Of a stretch of DNA of 64,000 nucleotides, positions 21,204 to 34,037 are shown piece after piece. Both the position numbers and the translations under genes were made by a program. Source of the DNA: Amycolatopsis japonica (GTDB lineage Bacteria > Actinomycetota > Actinomycetes > Mycobacteriales > Pseudonocardiaceae). The DNA is taken from contig NZ_CP008953.1 of assembly GCF_000732925.1 (NCBI RefSeq), positions 2,976,001-3,040,000 of the forward strand. Reading direction: 5' to 3'. Every line of letters begins with the position of its first letter. Within the stretch, counting starts at the first letter, position 1. The notes beneath the pieces were generated by a model. That model searched no databases, was not told the origin of the DNA, and saw only the letters and a program-made list of their open reading frames with translations.

Positions 21204-22673
21204 ATGACAGAGCTTGACGGAGTCGGCGAGATCGACGGCTCCTGGTCCGACGAGTCCGAATTCACCGCGCTCGACGCGCAGATCGCCGCGGGCGAGGCCG
21301 AGGAGGAGGCGCAGCTCGCGCAGCCGGTCCTCGCCGTCGTCGGCAGGCCGAACGTCGGCAAGTCGACCCTGGTCAACCGCATCCTCGGCCGTCGAGAGGC
21401 GGTCGTGCAGGACGTCCCCGGCGTGACCAGGGACCGCGTCGCCTACGACGCGTTCTGGGCGGGCCGCCGGTTCACGCTGGTGGACACGGGCGGCTGGGAG
21501 CCGGACGCGACCGGACTGCAGGCCTCCGTCGCCGCGCAGGCCGAGATGGCGATGGCCACCGCCGACGCGGTGCTGCTGGTCATCGACGCCAGCGTCGGCG
21601 CGACGGCGACCGACGAGGCCGTCTCCAAGGTGCTGCGCCGCTCGAAGAAGCCGGTGCTGCTCGCCGCCAACAAGGTCGACGACGACCGCCTGCTCGCCGA
21701 CACCGCGTCGCTGTGGTCGCTCGGCCTCGGCGAGCCGTACCCGGTCAGCGCGCTGCACGGGCGCAGCTCGGGCGACTTGCTCGACGCCATCGTCAAGGCA
21801 CTGCCGTCGATGCCGCGTGACGGCGACCGTGCTACCACCGGCCCGCGCCGCGTCGCGCTGGTCGGCAAGCCGAACGTGGGCAAGTCCAGCCTGCTGAACA
21901 AGCTCTCCGGCGAAGAGCGGTCCGTCGTGGACTCGGTCGCCGGCACCACCGTCGACCCGGTCGACTCGCTGGTCGAGTTGGACGGTGAGACCTGGCGGTT
22001 CGTCGACACCGCCGGTCTGCGCAAGCGGGTCAACTCGGCCAACGGCGCCGAGTACTACGCGTCGCTGCGGACCAAGACCGCGATCGACGCGGCCGAGGTC
22101 GCGATCGTGCTGCTGGACGCGGCCGAGCCGCTTTCGGAGCAGGACCTGCGGGTGCTGACCATGGTCGTCGAGGCCGGCCGGGCCTGCGTGCTCGCCTTCA
22201 ACAAGTGGGACCTCGTCGACGAGGACCGCCGTCACGCCATGGTCCGTGAGCTGGACCGCGGCCTGGTGCGGGTGCCGTGGGCGGACAAGGTCAACATCTC
22301 CGCCCTCACCGGCCGGTCGGTGCGCAAGCTCGCGCCCGCGCTGCGGACCGCGTTGAAGTCCTGGGACCAGCGGGTGCCCACCGGTCAGCTGAACGGCTGG
22401 CTGGCCGACCTCATCGCCGCGACCCCGCCGCCCGTGCGAGGCGGCAAGCAGCCGAAGGTGCTGTTCGCGACCCAGGCGGGTATCCGGCCGCCGACGCTGG
22501 TCCTGTTCACCACCGGCTTCCTCGAGGCGGGATACCGGCGGTTCATCGAACGGAAGTTCCGTGAGCGGTTCGGTTTCGAAGGCACACCCGTCCGGGTGAA
22601 TGTCCGGGTGCGGGAAAAGAAGCAAAGGCCGAAGGCCGGCGGAAAAGCGGCAGGGAAACCGAAGACTCGCTGA
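21204..22673 (+). CDS. der: Ribosome biogenesis GTPase Der (EngA)
   Basis: Der is a double GTPase needed for 50S assembly. The 489-residue protein has an acidic leader of about 35 residues, then G domain 1 ([28 protein letters not shown]) and G domain 2 ([25 protein letters not shown]), ending in the KH-like domain (about 385-470: [20 protein letters not shown]). The basic tail [18 protein letters not shown] is usual. It is the last gene of the cmk-plsC-der operon. Confidence 0.97.
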
Positions 22674-22744: not shown

Positions 22745-22920
22745 GGTGAGTTTCGACACTCTGCCGAGACCCTCCCGAGATATGTCGTTCACCTGCGGTA
22801 AAGTCGATGGTCTGCTAGCGGGCGCCTCATTCGGAGAGCGAGCCCGAATGACGCACTTCGCGAAAGGTGTGTGATGGGCTTGCGCGCCCATGGTTCCGCC
22901 GTGCCCGTGGTGATCTCACG

Positions 22921-25900
22921 ATGACCCTGACCGCCGACTCACGGCCGATCGCTTGCGTCGCGGACGTCACCGTCGCGCCGTCGCCCGCCCCGGTCGCCGA
23001 CCGCGCCCTGTTCTGGTCCGGTCTCGGCGCGGGCGAGCGCACCCTGATCGACATCCTCGCCGAGACCGCCGCCCGCCACCCCAACGCGGGCGCGATCGAC
23101 GACGGCGAGACCACGCTGTCCTACCGCAAGCTCGTCGAGGAGATCGACGCCTACGGCCGCAAGCTGACCGCCAATGGCGTCGGCGTCGGCGACCGGGTCG
23201 GCGTCCGGATCTCCTCCGGCACCGCTGAGCTCTACGTCGCCATCCTCGCGATCCTGTCCGTCGGCGCCGCCTATGTGCCGGTCGACGCGGACGATCCGGA
23301 GGAGCGCGCCGAACTGGTCTTCGGCGAGGCCGACGTCGCCGCGGTCGTCACCGACGGCGGCGCGATCACCGTGCTCGGCTCGCCGGGCGGCGTCGAGGGC
23401 TCGCCCGCGCCGACCGACGACGCCTGGATCATCTTCACCTCCGGTTCGACCGGGAAGCCGAAGGGCGTCGCGGTCTCGCACGCCTCGGCCGCCGCCTTCG
23501 TCGACGCCGAAGCGCAGCTGTTCCTCGCCGAGGAGCCGATCGGTCCCGGAGACCGCGTGCTCGCCGGGCTGTCCGTCGCGTTCGACGCGTCCTGTGAAGA
23601 GATGTGGCTCGCCTGGCGCCACGGCGCCTGTCTGGTCCCGGCGCCGCGTTCCCTCGTGCGCACCGGCGTCGACCTCGGCCCGTGGCTGGTCGCGCAGGGC
23701 ATCACCGTCGTCTCGACCGTGCCGACGCTGGCCGCGCTGTGGCCCGCCGACGCGCTCGAAGACGTCCGCCTGCTGATCTTCGGCGGCGAAGCGTGCCCGC
23801 CGGAGCTGGCCGAACGCGTCGCCGTCGAAGGCCGCGAAGTCTGGAACACCTACGGACCGACCGAGGCCACTGTCGTCGCCTGCGCCGCGCAGATGACCGG
23901 CGAAGGCCCGGTCCGTATCGGCCTGCCGCTGGTGGGCTGGCAGCTCGCCGTCGTGAACGAGGCGGGTGAACCGGTCGCGATGGGGGAGACCGGCGAGCTG
24001 GTCATCGGCGGCGTCGGCCTCGCCCGCTACTTGGACCCCGAGAAGGACGCCGAGAAGTTCGCGCCGCTGCCTTCGCTGGGCTGGCGCCGCGCGTACCGCA
24101 GCGGCGACATGGTCCGCGCGGAGGCCGAGGGCCTGCTGTTCCTCGGGCGCCTCGACGAGCAGGTGAAACTCGGCGGCCGCCGGATCGAACTCGGCGAGGT
24201 CGACGCCGCGCTCCAGGCGCTGCCCGGCGTGCAGGGTGCCGCCGCCGCGGTCCGCCGCACCAAGGCGGGCAACCAGGTGCTCGTCGGATACGTCGTGCCC
24301 GCGGAGGGGACGAAGTTCGACCACGACGAGGCCGCGACCCGGCTGCGCGAGCAGCTGCCCGCCGCGCTCGTCCCGCTGCTGGCCCTGATCGACGATCTGC
24401 CGACGCGCACTTCCGGCAAGGTCGACCGCAACGCGCTTCCCTGGCCGCTGTCCACTGTGGACGCCGCGAAATCCGGTCTGTCGCCGACGGAGAGCTGGCT
24501 CGCCGAAGGCTGGGCGGAGATCCTGGGCGTCTCGGTCGACAACCCGAAGGCCGACTTCTTCACCAACGGCGGTGGCAGCCTGACCGCCGCCCAGCTGATC
24601 GCGCGGATCCGCACCCGGCACCCGCAGGTGTCGGTGAGCGACATCTACGCCAACCCGAAGCTCGGCGCGCTCGCGTCGATGCTGGACGCGTTGAGCGGCG
24701 AGAAGACCGAACGCCGGGACATCGCGCCAACCCCGCGCAAGGCCGGGATCATCCAGTCGCTGCTGATGATCCCGCTGATGGGTCTCGTCGGCCTGCGCTG
24801 GACGACGATCGCCGCGACGCTGTCGAACGTGCTTTCGCTGGCCGGGTTCGCCTGGGCGCCGACGCTGAACTGGGCATGGATCGCCGTCGCGTGGGTCGTG
24901 CTGTTCAGCCCGGCCGGGCGGATCGCGATCTCCGCGACCGGCTCCCGGCTGCTGCTGCGCGGTGTTCGTCCCGGCAGCTACCCGCGCGGCGGGAGTGTCC
25001 ACTTACGACTGTGGACCGCCGAGAAACTCGCCGAGTTCAGCGGCGCGGACAGTGTCGCGGGCGCTTCCTGGATGACGACGTACGCCAAGGCCCTCGGCGC
25101 GCGGATCGCCAAGGACGTCGACCTGCACTCCCCGCCGCCGGTCACCGGCATGCTGAAGCTCGGCCGGGGTGCCGCCGTCGAACCCGAGGTCGACCTGTCC
25201 GGGCACTGGGTGGACGGCGATCTCGTGCACATCGGCAAGATCCGGATCGGCGCCGACGCGCGGATCGGCGCGCGCAGCACGCTGTTCCCCGGCGCGCGGA
25301 TCGGCAAGGGCGCGGAGATCGCGGCCGGGTCGACCGTCCGCGGCAATGTGCCAGCCGGACAGCGCTGGGCCGGTGCCCCCGCGGCCCGTGCCAGCAAGGA
25401 CGCGCTGAAGTGGCCGTCGAGCCGCCCGCCGCGCTCGCGGTTCTGGTCTTCGGTCTACGGCGCGACTTCGGTCGCACTGGGGCTTCTGCCCGCCGTCGCC
25501 GCCCTGCCCGCCGTCGCGGTGCTGGGCTACGCGATCTCTGGTGCGCCGTCGCTGGGCGCCGCGCTCGGTCAGGCGTTGCTGTTCACGCCGCTCGCGACCG
25601 TCGCGTACTTCCTGACGTACGCCCTGCTCGTGCTCGTCGGCGTCCGTTCGCTGAGCATCGGCATGGTCGAGGGCTACCACCCGGTGCACGGCCGAGTCGC
25701 GTGGCAGGTCTGGGCGACCGAGCGGCTGATGGGCATGGCGCGTGAAGGGCTGTTCCCCTTGTACGCCAGCCTGTTCACCCCGGTGTGGCTCCGGATGCTC
25801 GGCGCGAAGGTCGGCCGCAACGTCGAGGCGTCCACCGTGCTCGCGCTGCCGAAGATGACCCAGGTGGACAGTGGCGCGTTCCTCGCGGACGACACCATGG

Positions 25901-26823
25901 TCGCCACCTACGAACTCGGCCACGGCTGGCTGCACGTCGCCCCGGCGCGGATCGGCAAGCAGGCGTTCCTCGGCAACTCGGGGATGGCCGCGCCGGGACG
26001 TTCGGTGCCGAAACGCGGTCTGGTCGGAGTGCTGTCGTCGGCCCCGCTCAAGGCGAAGAAGGGCTCGTCGTACCTCGGGATGCCGCCGCTGCCGGTCCGC
26101 CGGTCGGTCGGCGAGGCGGACACGAGCCGCACCTTCACGCCGCCGCTGCGGCTGAAGGCGGCCCGCGCGCTCGTCGAACTCTGCCGCATCGTGCCGGTGA
26201 TGTGCGGTGTCGCGCTGACCGTGCTCGTGGCCGCCGGGATCTTCGCGCTGGCGTCGTCGTTCGGCTTCCTGGTCGCGGTGCTGCTCGGCGGGCCGCTGCT
26301 GCTCGCGGCCGGCGCCGTCGCCGCGCTGACCGCCACCGCGATGAAGTGGCTGCTGGTCGGCCGGTTCCGCGCGGTCGACCATCCCTTGTGGAGCTCGTTC
26401 GTCTGGCGCAACGAGCTCGCCGACACCTTCGTCGAAGCGCTCGCCGTGCCGTGGCTGATCGGTTCGCTCGGCGGCACGCCGCTGCTGCCGGCGTGGCTGC
26501 GGACCATGGGCGTCAAGATCGGGCGCGGCGTGTGGCTGGAGACGTACTGGCTGCCCGAGTCGGACCTGGTGAGCCTCGGCGACGGCGCGACGATCAACCG
26601 CGGCTGTGTCGTGCAGACGCACCTGTTCCACGACCGGATCATGACGATGTCGCCGGTGACCCTGGACGAGGGAGCGACGCTCGGGCCACACGGTATCGTG
26701 CTGCCTGGCGCGAGCATCGGCGCGCGGACGACCGTCGGACCTGGTTCCCTGGTGACCCGGGGCGACGCGGTTCCCGCCGACTCGCGCTGGCTGGGTAATC
26801 CCATCTCGGCCTGGACGAAGTAG
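22921..26823 (+). CDS. Pls-type membrane-bound single-module NRPS, poly-lysine-synthetase-like
   Basis: This 1300-residue protein has the layout of epsilon-poly-L-lysine synthetase (Pls, about 1320 residues). An adenylation domain occupies about 35-510 (A3 IIFTSGSTGKPKGVAVSH; YGPTE; A10 TSGKVDRNALP). A carrier domain with phosphopantetheine Ser553 (NGGGSLTA) follows. After residue 600 come three pairs of membrane helices alternating with three soluble, hexapeptide-repeat-like domains (for example IGKIRIGADARIGARSTLFP and GATLGPHGIVLPGASIGART). There is no condensation or thioesterase domain. Aligning to PheA, I read the pocket as D-A-E-S-I-G-T-V-V-K, matching the published lysine code DAESIGSVCK at 8 of 10 positions. 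The product is therefore probably a lysine (or other diamino acid) homopolymer or short oligomer. An M1 peptidase follows 20 bp downstream. ATG 22921 is the preferred start; GTG 22867 is possible. Confidence 0.9.
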   Translation: MTLTADSRPIACVADVTVAPSPAPVADRALFWSGLGAGERTLIDILAETAARHPNAGAIDDGETTLSYRKLVEEIDAYGRKLTANGVGVGDRVGVRISSGTAELYVAILAILSVGAAYVPVDADDPEERAELVFGEADVAAVVTDGGAITVLGSPGGVEGSPAPTDDAWIIFTSGSTGKPKGVAVSHASAAAFVDAEAQLFLAEEPIGPGDRVLAGLSVAFDASCEEMWLAWRHGACLVPAPRSLVRTGVDLGPWLVAQGITVVSTVPTLAALWPADALEDVRLLIFGGEACPPELAERVAVEGREVWNTYGPTEATVVACAAQMTGEGPVRIGLPLVGWQLAVVNEAGEPVAMGETGELVIGGVGLARYLDPEKDAEKFAPLPSLGWRRAYRSGDMVRAEAEGLLFLGRLDEQVKLGGRRIELGEVDAALQALPGVQGAAAAVRRTKAGNQVLVGYVVPAEGTKFDHDEAATRLREQLPAALVPLLALIDDLPTRTSGKVDRNALPWPLSTVDAAKSGLSPTESWLAEGWAEILGVSVDNPKADFFTNGGGSLTAAQLIARIRTRHPQVSVSDIYANPKLGALASMLDALSGEKTERRDIAPTPRKAGIIQSLLMIPLMGLVGLRWTTIAATLSNVLSLAGFAWAPTLNWAWIAVAWVVLFSPAGRIAISATGSRLLLRGVRPGSYPRGGSVHLRLWTAEKLAEFSGADSVAGASWMTTYAKALGARIAKDVDLHSPPPVTGMLKLGRGAAVEPEVDLSGHWVDGDLVHIGKIRIGADARIGARSTLFPGARIGKGAEIAAGSTVRGNVPAGQRWAGAPAARASKDALKWPSSRPPRSRFWSSVYGATSVALGLLPAVAALPAVAVLGYAISGAPSLGAALGQALLFTPLATVAYFLTYALLVLVGVRSLSIGMVEGYHPVHGRVAWQVWATERLMGMAREGLFPLYASLFTPVWLRMLGAKVGRNVEASTVLALPKMTQVDSGAFLADDTMVATYELGHGWLHVAPARIGKQAFLGNSGMAAPGRSVPKRGLVGVLSSAPLKAKKGSSYLGMPPLPVRRSVGEADTSRTFTPPLRLKAARALVELCRIVPVMCGVALTVLVAAGIFALASSFGFLVAVLLGGPLLLAAGAVAALTATAMKWLLVGRFRAVDHPLWSSFVWRNELADTFVEALAVPWLIGSLGGTPLLPAWLRTMGVKIGRGVWLETYWLPESDLVSLGDGATINRGCVVQTHLFHDRIMTMSPVTLDEGATLGPHGIVLPGASIGARTTVGPGSLVTRGDAVPADSRWLGNPISAWTK

Positions 26824-26843
26824 GAAAGCGGGGTTCTTCCCGG

Positions 26844-28181
26844 GTGATTTCGAAGGCATCCGTGCAGCCCTCGCCCGGCGCGGAAACCTCCGGCGACTCC
26901 TATCTGCCCCGTCACGGTAACGGCGGTTACCGGGTCCGGCACTACGATCTGGAGCTGGACTACAAGATCGGTCCCAACCGGTTGTCGGCCGCCGCGGCCA
27001 TCACCGCGGAGGCGACGCAGGCGCTGTCGCGGTTCACGCTCGACTTCGGCGAGTTCCGGATCAACCGGGTGCTGGTCAACGGGAAACCGGCCAAGTACAC
27101 GCGCCGCGCGCACAAGCTGCAGGTGAAGCCGGCGAAGTCGTTGGCGCTCGGCAGCGAGTTCCTGGTGGAGGTCCACTACGTCGGGAATCCGCGGCCGCTT
27201 CCGGGGCTGTGGGGCGACATCGGCTGGGACGAACTGACCGACGGCTCACTCGTCGCGAGTCAGCCGGTCGGGGCGCCGTCGTGGTTCCCGTGCAACGACC
27301 ATCCGGCGGACAAGGCGACGTACCGTGTCGCGCTCACGACGTCGTCGCCGTATCTCGTGGCCGTGACCGGGAATCTCGTCTCCCGGTACACGCGCGCGAG
27401 CACCACTCAGTGGGTCTTCGAACGGCCCGAGCCGACGCCGACGTATCTGATGAGTGTCCAAATCGGACGGTACGACGACATCGTGCTGGCCTCCGGCGGT
27501 GTCCCGCAGCGGGCCGCCGTGCCGCCGCGCCTGCGCCGGGCCTTCTCGCGCGATTTCGGGCGGCAGGGCCAGATCATGGAGTCGCTGCAGCGGTTGTTCG
27601 GGCCTTATCCCTTCGGCGAGTACGTCATCGTCGTCACCGACGACGACCTCGACGACCCGATCGAAGCGCAGGGCATGTCGATCTTCGGCGCCAACCACGT
27701 CGACGGGCGGCGCACGCACGAACGCCTCGTCGTCCACGAACTGGCGCACCAGTGGTTCGGCAACAGCCTGACCGTCGCCGACTGGCGGCACATCTGGCTG
27801 AACGAAGGCTTCGCGACGTACGCGGAATGGCTCTGGTCCGAGGAATCCGGCGGACAGAGCGCGCACGCGTGGGCGAAGACGTGGCACGCGCGGATGAAGG
27901 CGAAGCCCGCGGACCTGCGTCTCGCCGACCCCGGCGTGGCGCGGATGTTCGACGAGCGAGTGTACAAGCGGGGTGGGCTTTTGTTGCACGCCTTGCGTTG
28001 TACGGTCGGCGACGCCGTCTTCTTCCCGCTGGTGAAGGCTTGGGCGGTGGAGAACCGGCACGGTCTGGTGACGACAGCCGGGTTCGTTGCGCTCGCCGAA
28101 CGCTTTGCCGGGCGTTCGCTTGCTTCTTTCTTCGACGCTTGGCTGGATGCTTTGGCGCTGCCTCCACTTCCTCCCGCGTGA
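26844..28181 (+). CDS. M1-family zinc aminopeptidase, candidate poly-lysine-degrading enzyme
   Basis: This 445-residue gluzincin has zinc site His298-Glu299-x-x-His302 and Glu321 in HELAHQWFGNSLTVADW then WLNEGFATYAEW, which is HEXXH-X18-E. The substrate-binding GAMEN motif of classical M1 aminopeptidases is replaced by EAQGMSIFG (about 274-282). The N-terminal beta domain includes SWFPCNDHPADKATY. No signal peptide or membrane anchor is seen. The protein is short for M1 because the C-terminal ARM-like domain is truncated. The GTG start is 20 bp after the synthetase stop, so they form an operon. Streptomyces albulus epsilon-poly-lysine-degrading enzyme is reported as a zinc aminopeptidase with the same HEXXH-X18-E spacing. 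A self-protection or recycling role is therefore likely. Confidence 0.87.
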   Translation: MISKASVQPSPGAETSGDSYLPRHGNGGYRVRHYDLELDYKIGPNRLSAAAAITAEATQALSRFTLDFGEFRINRVLVNGKPAKYTRRAHKLQVKPAKSLALGSEFLVEVHYVGNPRPLPGLWGDIGWDELTDGSLVASQPVGAPSWFPCNDHPADKATYRVALTTSSPYLVAVTGNLVSRYTRASTTQWVFERPEPTPTYLMSVQIGRYDDIVLASGGVPQRAAVPPRLRRAFSRDFGRQGQIMESLQRLFGPYPFGEYVIVVTDDDLDDPIEAQGMSIFGANHVDGRRTHERLVVHELAHQWFGNSLTVADWRHIWLNEGFATYAEWLWSEESGGQSAHAWAKTWHARMKAKPADLRLADPGVARMFDERVYKRGGLLLHALRCTVGDAVFFPLVKAWAVENRHGLVTTAGFVALAERFAGRSLASFFDAWLDALALPPLPPA

Positions 28182-28183
28182 AG

Positions 28184-28236
28184 GTTCCCAATGTCGCATT
28201 TGAGACGCTCAGCGTCCCAAATGCGACATTGGGAAC
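28184..28236. terminator. 26-bp near-perfect palindrome after the Pls/M1 operon
   Basis: Arms 28184-28209 and 28211-28236 pair over 26 bp with a single mismatch (28203) and a 1-nt centre. The left arm begins just after the M1 stop codon. It is the longest stem in the window and contains GCATTT/AAATGC like the 225-244 element. It is a probable terminator. Confidence 0.65.
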
Positions 28237-28241
28237 ACCTC

Positions 28242-28289
28242 GCGAGTTGTCCACAGGGGACGCCGACGGGGCGAGTTGTCCACAGGGGA
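28242..28289 (+). repeat. Two direct 19-bp repeats with DnaA-box cores
   Basis: GCGAGTTGTCCACAGGGGA occurs at 28242-28260 and again at 28271-28289, 29 bp apart in the same orientation. Each contains TTGTCCACA, the consensus actinobacterial DnaA box. They sit directly upstream of the AbiEi/DUF559-like gene. This is not oriC, since no dnaA/dnaN genes flank it. They may titrate DnaA or control the downstream gene. Confidence 0.7.
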
Positions 28290-29463: not shown

Positions 29464-31743
29464 ATGGCCGAGCTGTCCAGGCGATCGATGTTGAGGGTCG
29501 CGGCCGGGGCGGCGGCGCTCGGTGGCCTCTGGGCTCAGGGGGCGCCACCGGCGCTCGCCGGACAAGACGTCCACCGCCGGATCGTCGACGACGCGCGCAT
29601 GGTCTGGAAGCGGATGCCGACGGGCTGGCAGGAGGGCCCGTTCCTCGCCAACGGCTTCCTCGGCGTCCAGTTCTACGCGGGGGCGCAGCCGAACGTCCTC
29701 AAGGTGATGCTCAGCCATTCGCGCGTCCAGGACCAGCGCGGGCAGTGGGAAGCGGGTATCGGGTACTCGCGGCTCCCGATCGGCTACCTCACCCTCACCT
29801 TCGAGGGCGCGATCACGGCGGTCGACTGGCATCTCGACCTGTACAACGCCGAACTCGGCGGCACGATCACCACCACTCGCGGCTCGGTGCGCTTCTCCGC
29901 GCTGGTCCACAACGACCAGGACCTCCTCCTCGTCTCGCTCACCGGGGAGGCGGCGGCGGACTGGGGGTTCACGCCGCTCACGTCGGCGACCACGCGGACG
30001 ATCCGCAAACCGCCCGAGTACACGGCCAATCCCGATCCGAAGCTCGGCAGCGCGGGCGCCGTCCGGTACTGCGAGCAGCCGCTGCACGCGGGTGGCGGGT
30101 ACACGACGGCGTGGCGTGAGCGGACCATCGGCACGCGACGGCTCCTGGCGGCGACGGTCGCGTACGGGTTCCCCGAGCCGACGCACACCGCCGAAGCGAT
30201 CACGAGGGTCGATCGGGCGTCGGCGGCGAACCCGGATCGGCTCGTCGCCGGGCACCGGCGCTGGTGGAACGCCTTCTACCGGCGCAGTTTCGTGTCCATT
30301 CCGGACAAACGGATCCAGCGGTTCTACTGGATCCAGCTGTACAAGACCGCGTGCGCCACCCGCGCGGACGGCCCGGTGGTCGCCGAATGGGGGCCGTGGT
30401 TCCCGGAGGTCGGCAACAGCTGGACGGCGGTGTGGTGGAACCTGAACGTCCAGGTCACCTATCCGATCGTCAACAGCAGCAACCATCCCGAACTCGACGC
30501 CGTCACCGCGACCTTCCGCCGCGACCACGCCAACCTCGAACTCTCGGTACCTCCCGCCTACCGGGACGGCGAAACGTACGCGCTTTCGCATCCGGGCGAC
30601 TGGCGGCTGCGGCCCGGCGGCACCCGTGCGGTCGGGATCCCCGGGCCCGCCACCAAGAACGACCAGACCGGGAACCTGATCTGGGGCCTGCACAACGTCT
30701 GGCTCGCGTACCGGCACAGCATGGACCACCGGGTGCTGCGCGACGTCCTGTATCCGACGCTCGCCAAGGCGCTCAACTACTACCGGCATTTCCTCGCGAC
30801 GGGCCCGGACGGCGCCTTGCATCTGCCGATGACGAGGTCGCCCGAGTACGCCGACGCGGCCGACTGCACCTACGACCTGTCGTTGATCCGCTGGGCCGCG
30901 CGCACTCTTGTCGAATCGGCGGCCAAGCTGCGGATCGACGATCCGCGGGTGCCGGCGTGGCGGGAGATCGGCGAGAAACTGGTGCCGTACCACCAGGATC
31001 CCGCTCAAGGCGTGCTGATCGGCGACGGCGTCCCGCTGGCCGAATCGCATCGGCACTTCTCGCATCTGCTCTGGCTCTACCCGCTGCGCGAGAAACTCTG
31101 GGACCGTCCCGGCGACCGGGACATCATGCGCCGGACCTTCGCGCATTGGTCGAGCGCGCAGGAGAAATGGCACGGCTACAGCTTCGCGGCGGCGTCGTCG
31201 ATGAGTTCCGTGATGGACGAGCCCGAGGAGGCCTTGCGCTATCTGAAGATCTTCCTCGACGGAACCGTCGTCGCGAACACCCAGCTGACGCCGAACACGA
31301 TGTACCGCGAGGGGGCGAACCTCGCGATCGAGAGTCCCATCACCGCCGCGCAGTCCGTTGTGGACATGCTCTTGCAGGGTGATCACGGCGTGCTCAAGGT
31401 CTTCCCATCGGTCTCGTCGACGTGGCCGGACGCGTCCTTCGAAAGCCTGCGCGCGGAGGGGGCGTTCCTCGTGGACGCGTCCCGGCGGAACGGCGTGACC
31501 GAATGGATCCGTGTCCACAGCGAGGCGGGGGAGCCGCTCGTCCTGCGGCACGGGATCCCCGGGGACATCGAGGTCCGCGACGCGCGCGGACGACGGCTTC
31601 CTTGGCGTCAAACGGATCCCGGCACGATCTCGATTCCGCTCCGCCGTGGCGGGACGGCCGTCGTCTCGCGGCGCGGCACGCGTCCGGAACCGGAGCCGCG
31701 GGACGTGCCCGGTGACCGTGGAACTCCGGCTTGGGGGATCTGA
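29464..31743 (+). CDS. Tat-exported GH95-like glycoside hydrolase, first copy
   Basis: This 759-residue protein has a Tat signal (SRRSMLRVAAGAAALGG) with cleavage near residue 32. The (alpha/alpha)6-type body resembles family GH95, which includes alpha-L-fucosidases: GPFLANGFLG near the start, WWNLNVQVTYPIVNSSNHPE (the N-x-N of GH95), SPEYADAADC with the candidate acid Glu, SHRHFSHLLWLYPL, and a C-terminal sandwich beginning VFPSVSSTWPDASFESLRAE. At the place of the GH95 base Asp (QIDGNFG) this protein has AIESPIT, so the base may be Glu. The sugar specificity is unknown. GGAGG precedes the ATG. A paralogue starts 2 bp after the stop, so the pair is one operon. Confidence 0.8.
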   Translation: MAELSRRSMLRVAAGAAALGGLWAQGAPPALAGQDVHRRIVDDARMVWKRMPTGWQEGPFLANGFLGVQFYAGAQPNVLKVMLSHSRVQDQRGQWEAGIGYSRLPIGYLTLTFEGAITAVDWHLDLYNAELGGTITTTRGSVRFSALVHNDQDLLLVSLTGEAAADWGFTPLTSATTRTIRKPPEYTANPDPKLGSAGAVRYCEQPLHAGGGYTTAWRERTIGTRRLLAATVAYGFPEPTHTAEAITRVDRASAANPDRLVAGHRRWWNAFYRRSFVSIPDKRIQRFYWIQLYKTACATRADGPVVAEWGPWFPEVGNSWTAVWWNLNVQVTYPIVNSSNHPELDAVTATFRRDHANLELSVPPAYRDGETYALSHPGDWRLRPGGTRAVGIPGPATKNDQTGNLIWGLHNVWLAYRHSMDHRVLRDVLYPTLAKALNYYRHFLATGPDGALHLPMTRSPEYADAADCTYDLSLIRWAARTLVESAAKLRIDDPRVPAWREIGEKLVPYHQDPAQGVLIGDGVPLAESHRHFSHLLWLYPLREKLWDRPGDRDIMRRTFAHWSSAQEKWHGYSFAAASSMSSVMDEPEEALRYLKIFLDGTVVANTQLTPNTMYREGANLAIESPITAAQSVVDMLLQGDHGVLKVFPSVSSTWPDASFESLRAEGAFLVDASRRNGVTEWIRVHSEAGEPLVLRHGIPGDIEVRDARGRRLPWRQTDPGTISIPLRRGGTAVVSRRGTRPEPEPRDVPGDRGTPAWGI

Positions 31744-31745
31744 GC

Positions 31746-34037
31746 ATGGACATCACTCGCAGGACGGTGCTCGGCGGGGCGTTGGCAGGTGTGGCCACCG
31801 CCGGCCTCACGCCGTCCGCGTCGGCGGTGGAGAACGACTTCGCGCTCGGCGGCCTCGACTGGCCCGGTTTCCTCGGCACGGCCGACCTGATCTGGCGCCG
31901 GATGCCGAAGACCTGGTACGAAGGCCCCTTTCTGGGCAACGGTTTCCTCGGCTCGGGCATCTACGCCGAACCCGGCCGGAACGCCGTCCGGTTCAACGTC
32001 CAGCACAGCGAGGTACAGGACCACCGGCCGGAGTTCGGCTCCCTGTTCGGGCTCGCGCGGCTGCCGATCGGGTATTTCACCCTCGAACCGGTCGGCGCCA
32101 TCACCGGGATCGACTGGCGGATGGACCTCTGGAACGCCGAACTCAGGGGCACGATCACCACGGCCGCGGGCAGCCTGTCGCTGCGGGCGATCGTCCACAC
32201 CGGACAGTCGTTGCTGGCCGTCGAGGTCGAGCCGACCGAGGGGGAGCGCGGTTTCGCGTGGGTCTTCCATCCGGCCGAGGCGGTGAGCCCGAGAACGGAT
32301 CCGAAGTTCGGGAAGCCGCCGCCCGCCGGGTACGTCGCCAACCCGCCCGCGAGGCTGGAAAGCAGTGGTGACAGCAGGCTTTCCGTCCAGAGCCTGCTGG
32401 CGGGCGGCGAGCATGTCACGGCGTGGCGCGAGGTCGCCCAGGGCTCGAAACGGACGCTGTACACGTCCGTGGCCTGGTCGTTTCCGAAGCGGACCGCCGC
32501 GCGAGAGGCGTTGAAGACGGTCCGCCGGGCCGAGCCGTTCTCGGCGTTGACGGCGGGACATCGCCGCTGGTGGCATGACTACTATCGGCACGGCTTCCTG
32601 TCCATTCCGGACACCCGGCTCCAAAGCTTCTACTGGATCCAGCTGTACAAGATCGCCTCCGCCGCGCGCCGGGAAGCTCCGGTGATGGCGACCTGCGGGC
32701 CGTGGCTGGAGCCGACCCCGTGGCCCGCGACGTGGTGGAACCTCAACGTCCAGCTCGAATACTGGCTCATCCACGGCTCCAACCATCTCGAACTGGACGC
32801 CGTCGGCCACGCGCTCGGCAAGTACCGGGCCAACCTGACGAGCCAGGTCGCCGAGCCGTACCAGCACGATTCGGCGGGCATCCCACGTACGACGGACATG
32901 AACCTGCTCAACGGCGCGGTCGGGACGAACGCGGGGTTCCCGGTCGGCATCCCCGGCAAGGAGACGCCGACGCCGGAGGTCGGGAACCTCACCTGGGCGC
33001 TGCACAACGTCTGGCTGTCCTATCGGCACACGATGGACCGGCGGCTCCTACGGGAGACCTTGTTCCCCTTGCTGCGCAAGGCGATCAACTACTACCTCCA
33101 TTTCCTGGCGCCCGGCAGGGACGGGAAGCTGCACCTTCCGGCGACGTTCTCCCCGGAGTACGGCGTCAACGCGCCCGACTGCAACTACGACCTCGCGCTG
33201 ATCCGCTGGGGTTGCAAGACCCTGCTGGAGGCGGCGGCGGAACTGCGCGTCGACGATCCGCTCGCGCGGCGGTGGCGGGAGGTCCTGGCCACGCTCGTCC
33301 CGTATCCGGCCGATGCCAACGGCTACATGATCGGAGCGGGTGTGCCGTTCGCGAAGTCGCATCGGCACTACTCGCATCTGCTGCAGATCTACCCGCTGTA
33401 CGAGATCACCTGGGAGCGGCCGGAGCACCGGCGGATCATCGAGACCTCGCTCGATCACTGGGTGGGCTTCGAGGGGGCGCTGCAGGGCTACACGTTCACC
33501 GGCGCCGCGTCGATGTCGGCGCAGATGCTGCGCGGTGAGAAGGCGGAGTTCTACCTCGGCGAACTGCAACGGCGCTACATCCAGCCGAACACGATGTACA
33601 AGGAATCCGGTCCCGTGATCGAGACGCCGCTTTCGGCCGCGCAGTCGCTGCACGACATGCTCGTGCAGAGCTGGGGCGGCGTGATCCGGCTCTTCCCGGC
33701 GGTGCCCGCGAAATGGGCGGACGCCGCGCTGCGCGACTTCCGCACGGAGGGAGCGTTCCTGGTCAGCGCCTCTCGGCAGGGCGGGAAGACCCGATGGGTC
33801 AAGATCACCAGCGAGGCTGGGGCGCCCTGCGTGCTGCGGACGGATCTCGACGGCGAGCTGACCGTCCGTGACCGGTGGGGAAGGCCGAAACGCTGGCGGC
33901 GGCTGCCGAACGGGGACGTCCGGATCGACCTGCGGCGCGGTGAAGAGGCCGTCGTGCACCGTGCGGGCGACCAGCCGGATTTCGAGCTCCGGCCCGTCCC
34001 GGCGAACGGGGACGGCGCACCGTGGGGGATGCCGTGA
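31746..34037 (+). CDS. Tat-exported GH95-like glycoside hydrolase, second copy
   Basis: This 763-residue paralogue of the preceding gene aligns over its whole length. It has a Tat signal (TRRTVLGGALAGVATAG), GPFLGNGFLGSGIY, WWNLNVQLEYWLIHGSNHLE, SPEYGVNAPDCNYDL, SHRHYSHLLQIYPL and VIETPLSAAQSLHDMLVQS. The same Asp-to-Glu change as in the first copy is present, so it is a feature of this subfamily. The two copies are clearly diverged, which suggests an old duplication and different substrates. It probably acts in the cell envelope or outside on an oligosaccharide. Confidence 0.8.
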   Translation: MDITRRTVLGGALAGVATAGLTPSASAVENDFALGGLDWPGFLGTADLIWRRMPKTWYEGPFLGNGFLGSGIYAEPGRNAVRFNVQHSEVQDHRPEFGSLFGLARLPIGYFTLEPVGAITGIDWRMDLWNAELRGTITTAAGSLSLRAIVHTGQSLLAVEVEPTEGERGFAWVFHPAEAVSPRTDPKFGKPPPAGYVANPPARLESSGDSRLSVQSLLAGGEHVTAWREVAQGSKRTLYTSVAWSFPKRTAAREALKTVRRAEPFSALTAGHRRWWHDYYRHGFLSIPDTRLQSFYWIQLYKIASAARREAPVMATCGPWLEPTPWPATWWNLNVQLEYWLIHGSNHLELDAVGHALGKYRANLTSQVAEPYQHDSAGIPRTTDMNLLNGAVGTNAGFPVGIPGKETPTPEVGNLTWALHNVWLSYRHTMDRRLLRETLFPLLRKAINYYLHFLAPGRDGKLHLPATFSPEYGVNAPDCNYDLALIRWGCKTLLEAAAELRVDDPLARRWREVLATLVPYPADANGYMIGAGVPFAKSHRHYSHLLQIYPLYEITWERPEHRRIIETSLDHWVGFEGALQGYTFTGAASMSAQMLRGEKAEFYLGELQRRYIQPNTMYKESGPVIETPLSAAQSLHDMLVQSWGGVIRLFPAVPAKWADAALRDFRTEGAFLVSASRQGGKTRWVKITSEAGAPCVLRTDLDGELTVRDRWGRPKRWRRLPNGDVRIDLRRGEEAVVHRAGDQPDFELRPVPANGDGAPWGMP

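Follow-up and report, generated by a model that had tools for sequence, protein, structure and literature searches.

The question raised by this locus is whether two adjacent genes of the soil actinomycete Amycolatopsis japonica specify both the synthesis and the breakdown of a cationic homopolymer and, if so, which polymer this would be and where it would be degraded. The genes lie in what we call the window, that is the whole stretch of 64,000 nucleotides that was analysed (positions 2,976,001 to 3,040,000 of contig NZ_CP008953.1), within a genome of 9.05 Mb. The first, a pls-like gene on the plus strand (22921..26823), encodes a putative epsilon-poly-L-lysine (ePL) synthetase of 1300 amino acids (aa) with an adenylation (A)-carrier (T)-TIGR02353 layout, as indicated by its TIGR02353 match, its similarity to the structure 7WEW and the M1 gene beside it. 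The second starts with GTG 20 bp downstream on the same strand (26844..28181) and encodes an M1 zinc peptidase of the PldII type, 445 aa in length, which lacks an N-terminal hydrophobic export signal. Very likely, the two genes represent a pls-pldII operon, the products of which would make and hydrolyse ePL. This reading is carried by homology to known enzymes, an identical substrate pocket, catalytic motifs that look intact and the conservation of the gene pair. Given the E-values and the conservation of the pair, its occurrence is not due to chance.

Both open reading frames (ORFs) showed third-position GC contents of the coding type, namely 0.92 for the pls-like ORF and 0.87 for the peptidase ORF. 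The pls-like ORF was taken to start with the ATG at 22921, while an alternative GTG at 22867 would yield a protein of 1318 aa. A Pfam scan (E 0.001) detected AMP-binding, AMP-binding_C and PP-binding, corresponding to a single A domain and a single carrier domain, and no Condensation or Thioesterase domain in the synthetase. TIGR02353 ('Pls/PosA family non-ribosomal peptide synthetase') matched residues 629-1313 of the 1318-aa form with 738.9 bits, the cut-off being 423.1. On these matches and its pocket (see below) we place the protein in the ePL branch of the Pls/PosA family, and the one-A, one-carrier layout proposed in a preliminary description of the locus was borne out. The core of the A domain (PF00501; 23059..24027, plus strand) contains all but the last of the ten pocket residues (DAESIGTVV), as located by the Pfam scan and the pocket alignment. 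It is followed on the same strand by the AMP-binding_C subdomain (PF13193; 24196..24420), which contributes the lysine of the pocket (residue 518 in the 1318-aa form), the carrier domain (PF00550; 24496..24684), in which NGGGSL, located by eye, is the likely phosphopantetheine site, and the TIGR02353 membrane polymerisation region (24751..26805). The latter comprises three repeats and several hydrophobic stretches. The repeats aligned in all pairs with 22-31% identity (E 1e-9 to 4e-6); a 100% match of repeat segments 2 and 3 merely reflects overlap of the chosen segments. A simple hydropathy scan, which also marked two stretches within the A domain, placed hydrophobic stretches at about residues 625-646, 670-692, 862-937 and 1098-1165, where the last two are merged and each long enough for two helices. 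Six transmembrane helices are thus plausible. Of the earlier proposal that three repeat domains are separated by membrane helices, the three repeats stood, whereas this crude scan did not separate the individual helices.

The amino acid to be activated was deduced from the substrate pocket. Among PDB entries, the A-T part matched best to 7WEW, the A domain of ePL synthase, with 681.6 bits, the second match reaching 389.4 bits. The pocket reads DAESIGTVVK, its columns being set via core motifs of PheA rather than by structural superposition, and in the pairwise alignment it is identical to that of 7WEW at 10/10 positions. The preliminary description had arrived at the same pocket and had counted eight identities out of ten with a lysine code, DAESIGSVCK; the count is correct, but this code was its own comparator, and the complete match with 7WEW makes the stronger case for lysine. 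Furthermore, of 80 named relatives of Pls, 79 had the same code and one (Kocuria, L080) had DAESIGTVIK. These relatives are the best 80 of 592 among the matches listed, chosen by similarity to Pls of Streptomyces albulus, and are not a neutral sample. Within the genus, 30 loci including that of the window were examined, and the 27 with an A-domain match all carried the same code (27/27), while L015, L016 and L020 gave no match. Pocket position 2 is reported to be Ala in lysine enzymes, Phe in enzymes for diaminopropionate (Dap) or diaminobutyrate (Dab), and Met in ornithine enzymes, and the ePL group 2 of the same study is reported to have no members with odd pockets (PMC10522769). The window synthetase has Ala at this position. 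Since its pocket equals that of 7WEW and has Ala at position 2, lysine is the expected substrate; L-lysine is hence predicted to be activated, with ePL as the probable product. PosA, the delta-poly-L-ornithine synthetase of Acinetobacter baumannii, shares the TIGR02353 architecture but has Met where the window enzyme has Ala (PMC10522769).

Conceivably, the pair could instead make and cleave another cationic polymer, composed of ornithine, diaminobutyrate, diaminopropionate or beta-lysine, as the TIGR02353 family includes enzymes for such polymers (PMC10522769) and a second TIGR02353 protein of the same genome has a Phe-type pocket, DFECLSVVTK. The window pocket, however, differs not only from Phe-type pockets but also from those of PosA (DMEHNGTVSK) and the S. 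hindustanus beta-lysine synthetase (DGESISVVNK), and the peptidase context is reported to distinguish Pls from three other synthetases compared (PMC8117764). We therefore regard another cationic polymer as distinctly improbable. A non-lysine pocket for the window synthetase was discarded on the pocket comparison.

The downstream protein matched PF17900 and PF01433, the latter match ending at residue 433 of 445. Its zinc site, HELAH-X18-E, occupies residues 298-321 (27735..27806, plus strand). The coordinates, spacing and motif of the peptidase described earlier were all verified. The canonical GXMEN motif of M1 enzymes is seemingly missing, and a degenerate peptidase was considered. This was rejected, as alignment rows of 4gaa and 3cia, together with a motif tally, place Glu274 of PIEAQ (27657..27671, plus strand) at the position of the GXMEN Glu; for this reason the enzyme looks intact. 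Both the HEXXH-X18-E motif and the Glu at the GXMEN position recur in the peptidases encoded next to pls in L036, L037 and L041, and the window enzyme is homologous to M1 peptidases behind pls in Streptomyces. It also has the sequence VYKRGG, almost invariant among linked relatives, which we take to hold the catalytic Tyr of M1 enzymes, and it is devoid of the large C-terminal domain that longer M1 enzymes possess. Acidic residues such as D129 (100%), D270 (96%) and E371 (96%) are kept in linked peptidases and missing in four short paralogs from the same genome, which makes them candidates for cation recognition. Hydrolysis of ePL by this peptidase is predicted from its family. In ePL each residue would retain a free alpha-amine, the group recognised by M1 aminopeptidases, which may be the reason why PldII is reported to act as an endo-type 'aminopeptidase'.

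In the system that we propose, the synthetase would adenylate L-lysine and load it onto its own carrier domain, after which the membrane-embedded three-repeat domain would link the lysines, alpha-carboxyl to epsilon-amine, into ePL. The two-domain M1 zinc peptidase, probably co-transcribed with the synthetase, would then hydrolyse the polymer. Without an export signal it would meet the polymer or its fragments in the cytosol, where it might serve self-protection before export or the recycling of lysine.

Conservation of the pair was assessed at three levels. The genus was represented by 80 genomes, each from a different species, in a genome collection whose genus is narrower than organism names suggest. 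All of them had a TIGR02353 match (80/80), and in 79/80 an M1 gene lies directly downstream. This was established by coordinates in 77 of them and by reading the DNA in G030, where the synthetase match falls in two frames, and G037, where the pair is at a contig edge; the M1 homologs are 68% or more identical per matched piece. The exception, G062, is an assembly of 180 contigs (completeness 96%, contamination 6%). It gave no match for der, the usual upstream neighbour, at E 1e-100 either, and its lack of an adjacent M1 gene is possibly due to an assembly gap. Among 120 genomes of the family, five of which belong to the same genus, 79 had a TIGR02353 match at E 1e-120. Close M1 homologs occurred at 60 places in 59 of these 120 genomes, each directly behind a TIGR02353 gene (60/60), where close homologs were separated from distant ones at a score of at least ~430 bits, a cut that was set once the scores had shown a gap from 432 down to 296 bits. 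The M1 adjacency across Pseudonocardiaceae that the preliminary description had suggested looking for was thus found in both genus and family. At the named actinobacterial loci, an M1 gene follows pls on the same strand in 69 of the 77 that were testable, L038, L077 and L082 being left out as their contigs end in or at pls. Lastly, M1 and Pls distances correlated (n=70, r 0.927), and 0/2000 permutations reached a value as high. As a separate observation, the synthetase matches of L057 (Saccharomonospora sp. CUA-673) and L116 (the locus of G030) are split across frames, representing frameshifts or sequencing errors.

These data bear on two further explanations. That the M1 enzyme is an ordinary aminopeptidase that acts on normal peptides in the cytosol and whose gene merely happens to lie downstream of pls would agree with its generic catalytic motifs and with the fact that its nearest PDB relative, 6a8z, is a putative zinc metalloprotease. 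Yet close homologs in the 120 family genomes were found only behind Pls-type genes, also where the surrounding genes differ, the acidic residues D129, D270 and E371 set the linked enzymes apart from the short paralogs, and PldII, the relative from Streptomyces, reportedly degrades ePL (PMC9223678, PMC8117764); we judge such a role improbable. The other explanation holds that the genes lie together because they form part of a fixed core locus (der-pls-M1) that is passed on vertically, with no functional link between them. It draws on the finding that in 78 of 79 genus genomes der occupies the same contig and strand as M1, at a median distance of 4268 bp (4.1 to 5.2 kb in 77, 6.5 kb in G004). 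Since der was found within the stretch examined at only 5/80 named loci (four Amycolatopsis, one Prauserella), where some loci cover <7 kb upstream and a few der genes could be missed, the pls-M1 linkage cannot be put down to a single locus, which leaves this explanation highly improbable. The linkage as a product of the der locus was accordingly rejected, as it persists where der is not a neighbour.

A pls-peptidase operon, directed at the antimicrobial polymer poly-lysine, is not new in itself, and the gene pair occurs widely among actinobacteria. In S. albulus, pls and pldII overlap by 4 bp (PMC4361855), and a Corynebacterium operon is known whose Pls made ePL of 26-35 residues in S. coelicolor (PMC8117764). 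The window pair resembles the S. albulus system in its A-T-three repeat layout, its ten pocket residues and its adjoining M1-type gene with homologous catalytic motifs, but has a gap of 20 bp instead of the overlap; for this comparison S. albulus PldII was represented by L036, the A domain of which is 92% identical to the 7WEW query. With the C. variabile operon it shares the order of Pls and peptidase genes outside Streptomyces and a lysine-type pocket, although there the product was demonstrated by expression in S. coelicolor, whereas the window pair is known from its genes. In one study, antiSMASH assigned ePL (NAPAA) clusters to all Amycolatopsis strains (PMC11004387); these are the same cluster type in the same genus, as software predictions. 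The cassette is therefore a new example of an already known type and ordinary as a gene cassette, and the suggestion of such a cassette in a non-Streptomyces actinomycete was supported as an interpretation but not as a novelty, the operon type having been published for Streptomyces and Corynebacterium.

Where the peptidase acts is less certain. S. albulus PldII is reported outside the membrane (PMC9223678), a location that is not predicted for the window peptidase. Eight of the 69 named linked peptidases, all from Streptomyces (8/11 partner enzymes of that genus), start with a twin-arginine (Tat)-like signal, judged by eye as twin Arg plus a hydrophobic stretch, with a peak 12-residue hydropathy of 1.47-1.88, and seven of these eight genes overlap pls by 4 bp. 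The window peptidase is 40-48% identical to these eight enzymes but has no hydrophobic N-terminal segment (maximum 12-residue mean 0.11) and no Tat-like signal. The other 61 named linked peptidases also lack the signal: 56 have no such stretch (highest 1.14) and five from Lentzea have N-termini too short to score. Likewise, an export signal was absent from another 49 linked peptidases (29 of the genus, including the window, and 20 of the family; highest 1.13), a set that leaves out L015, L016 and L020, which have no M1 gene and are not pls-M1 loci, and that shares at least four organisms with the named set (L136/L050, L141/L113, L146/L051, L148/L067). All four short unlinked paralogs of the same genome scored as signal-bearing (1.72-3.04); two longer M1 matches, L131 and L132, were omitted from this scoring. 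One signal-bearing M1 paralog, L130, apparently lacks both the GXMEN Glu and the HEXXH Glu and is perhaps a pseudoenzyme. In an M1 tree rooted on the four paralogs, made by a quick method and with long branches meeting at the root, the signal-bearing group formed one clade (Shimodaira-Hasegawa-like approximate likelihood ratio test, SH-aLRT, 95) that requires one change; as the rooting paralogs are themselves signal-bearing, gain and loss of the signal are not distinguishable. By its sequence, the window peptidase would belong to a sister branch and not to PldII proper. It is probable that this enzyme and the signal-less branch as a whole are cytosolic and remove the polymer, or pieces of it, within the cell, in contrast to PldII of Streptomyces, which is exported. 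Hence, the synthesis-and-turnover cassette envisaged at first is supported by the pocket and the M1 linkage, with the qualification that its peptidase lacks the export signal of most Streptomyces partners. No account of peptidase export signals outside Streptomyces was found in the open-licence literature, most subscription papers lying outside this search.

Several points weigh against the proposed system or its cytosolic peptidase. Eight of the 77 testable named pls loci have no M1 gene by tblastn over the whole locus, namely S. rimosus (L042), all four Kitasatospora loci (L045, L046, L054, L064), Kocuria (L080), Pseudonocardia acidicola (L088, counted although it has only ~750 bases past pls) and Streptomyces sp. 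MJM8645 (L104). In the family, 65 genomes were listed with a TIGR02353 match of at least ~690 bits, and six of them lack an adjacent close M1 gene. Such loci show that a synthetase of this type does not depend on the peptidase for its presence in a genome. The correlation of distances could stem from shared vertical descent alone. Native C. variabile, as well as C. glutamicum expressing its Pls, is reported to have given no detectable ePL (PMC8117764), and since this operon is of the same type, one cannot take ePL production for granted in the present case. What PldII does is itself disputed: according to a review, inactivation of Pld and PldII altered neither yield nor chain length (PMC8506220), while repression of PldII by CRISPR interference gave longer chains (PMC9223678). 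Moreover, a PldII model places two zinc ions at residues other than the HEXXH site, which is at odds with the M1 assignment (PMC9223678). Regarding location, the Streptomyces enzymes L062, L071 and L073 are also signal-less, so that the signal is split by branch and not by genus. The missing signal was judged by a hydropathy window on chosen ORF starts and not by a trained predictor, and non-classical export of the window peptidase is possible.

The near-universal presence of the pair shows that, across an entire actinomycete genus, genes for poly-lysine are almost fixed and do not form an antibiotic cluster of scattered occurrence. The exported peptidase of the Streptomyces type, in turn, accounts for a minority of the loci that were examined. 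Should the peptidase indeed act inside the cell, the location of ePL before secretion and its purpose become testable questions. Two features merit specialist attention, namely the branch of peptidases without a signal and the near-universal occurrence of the pair in the genus. A bolder idea, which we consider doubtful, is that in most pls-bearing actinobacteria poly-lysine is mainly an intracellular compound that is turned over, for example as a lysine or nitrogen reserve or a reserve partner of polyanions, and recycled by the cytosolic M1 enzyme, the exported version in one Streptomyces clade being the antibiotic form. The restriction of the signal to that clade among the linked peptidases examined and the fixed locus in nearly all 80 genus genomes are compatible with this, as is the reported lack of detectable ePL in native C. 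variabile (PMC8117764).

Other TIGR02353 systems were also encountered. The second synthetase of the own genome (C1:3970314-3972395; L120:5184-9947) is ~29% identical to the window Pls, and its A domain starts only at residue 280 of a 1587-aa ORF. Phe at pocket position 2, as in its DFECLSVVTK, is reported for Dap/Dab enzymes (PMC10522769), and no M1 match was found within the 18 kb fetched. L118 and L124 contain lysine-code Pls proteins, identified by elimination from the pocket tally, that are 52-55% identical to the window Pls; there was no M1 match within the stretch fetched. TIGR02353 matches scoring like those of L118 and L124 occur in other genus genomes. Split systems, in which a carrier-TIGR02353 protein without an A domain stands beside a separate A-T protein, are present at L123:6368-13499 and L125:1910-9142. 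The pocket of their A-T protein, DIWQSTASDK, is without the Glu that enzymes for cationic polymers retain, genes for a TauD-type dioxygenase and an ornithine-cyclodeaminase-family protein follow, and the product is possibly a non-cationic or modified polymer. In a further split system (L121:4646-10479), the carrier-TIGR02353 protein adjoins a non-ribosomal peptide synthetase with AMP-binding, carrier and Thioesterase domains, the pocket DIWESTANHK and a Condensation match that was only sub-threshold.

In the window, the neighbours of the pair include der, acyltransferase and cmk genes. The der/engA-type GTPase gene (21204..22673, plus strand), which usually precedes the pair in the genus, lies outside the pathway. 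Directly after the peptidase stop, a very stable hairpin with a long stem (28177..28244; -48.8 kcal/mol, z -9.2) may mark the end of the operon. Its arm occurs at 10 genome sites with <=1 mismatch, two of which are its own arms, against 0 for a control pattern, so that the hairpin is possibly a terminator or a dispersed palindromic element. Further downstream, positions 29464-34037 contain two adjoining GH95-type glycosidase genes.

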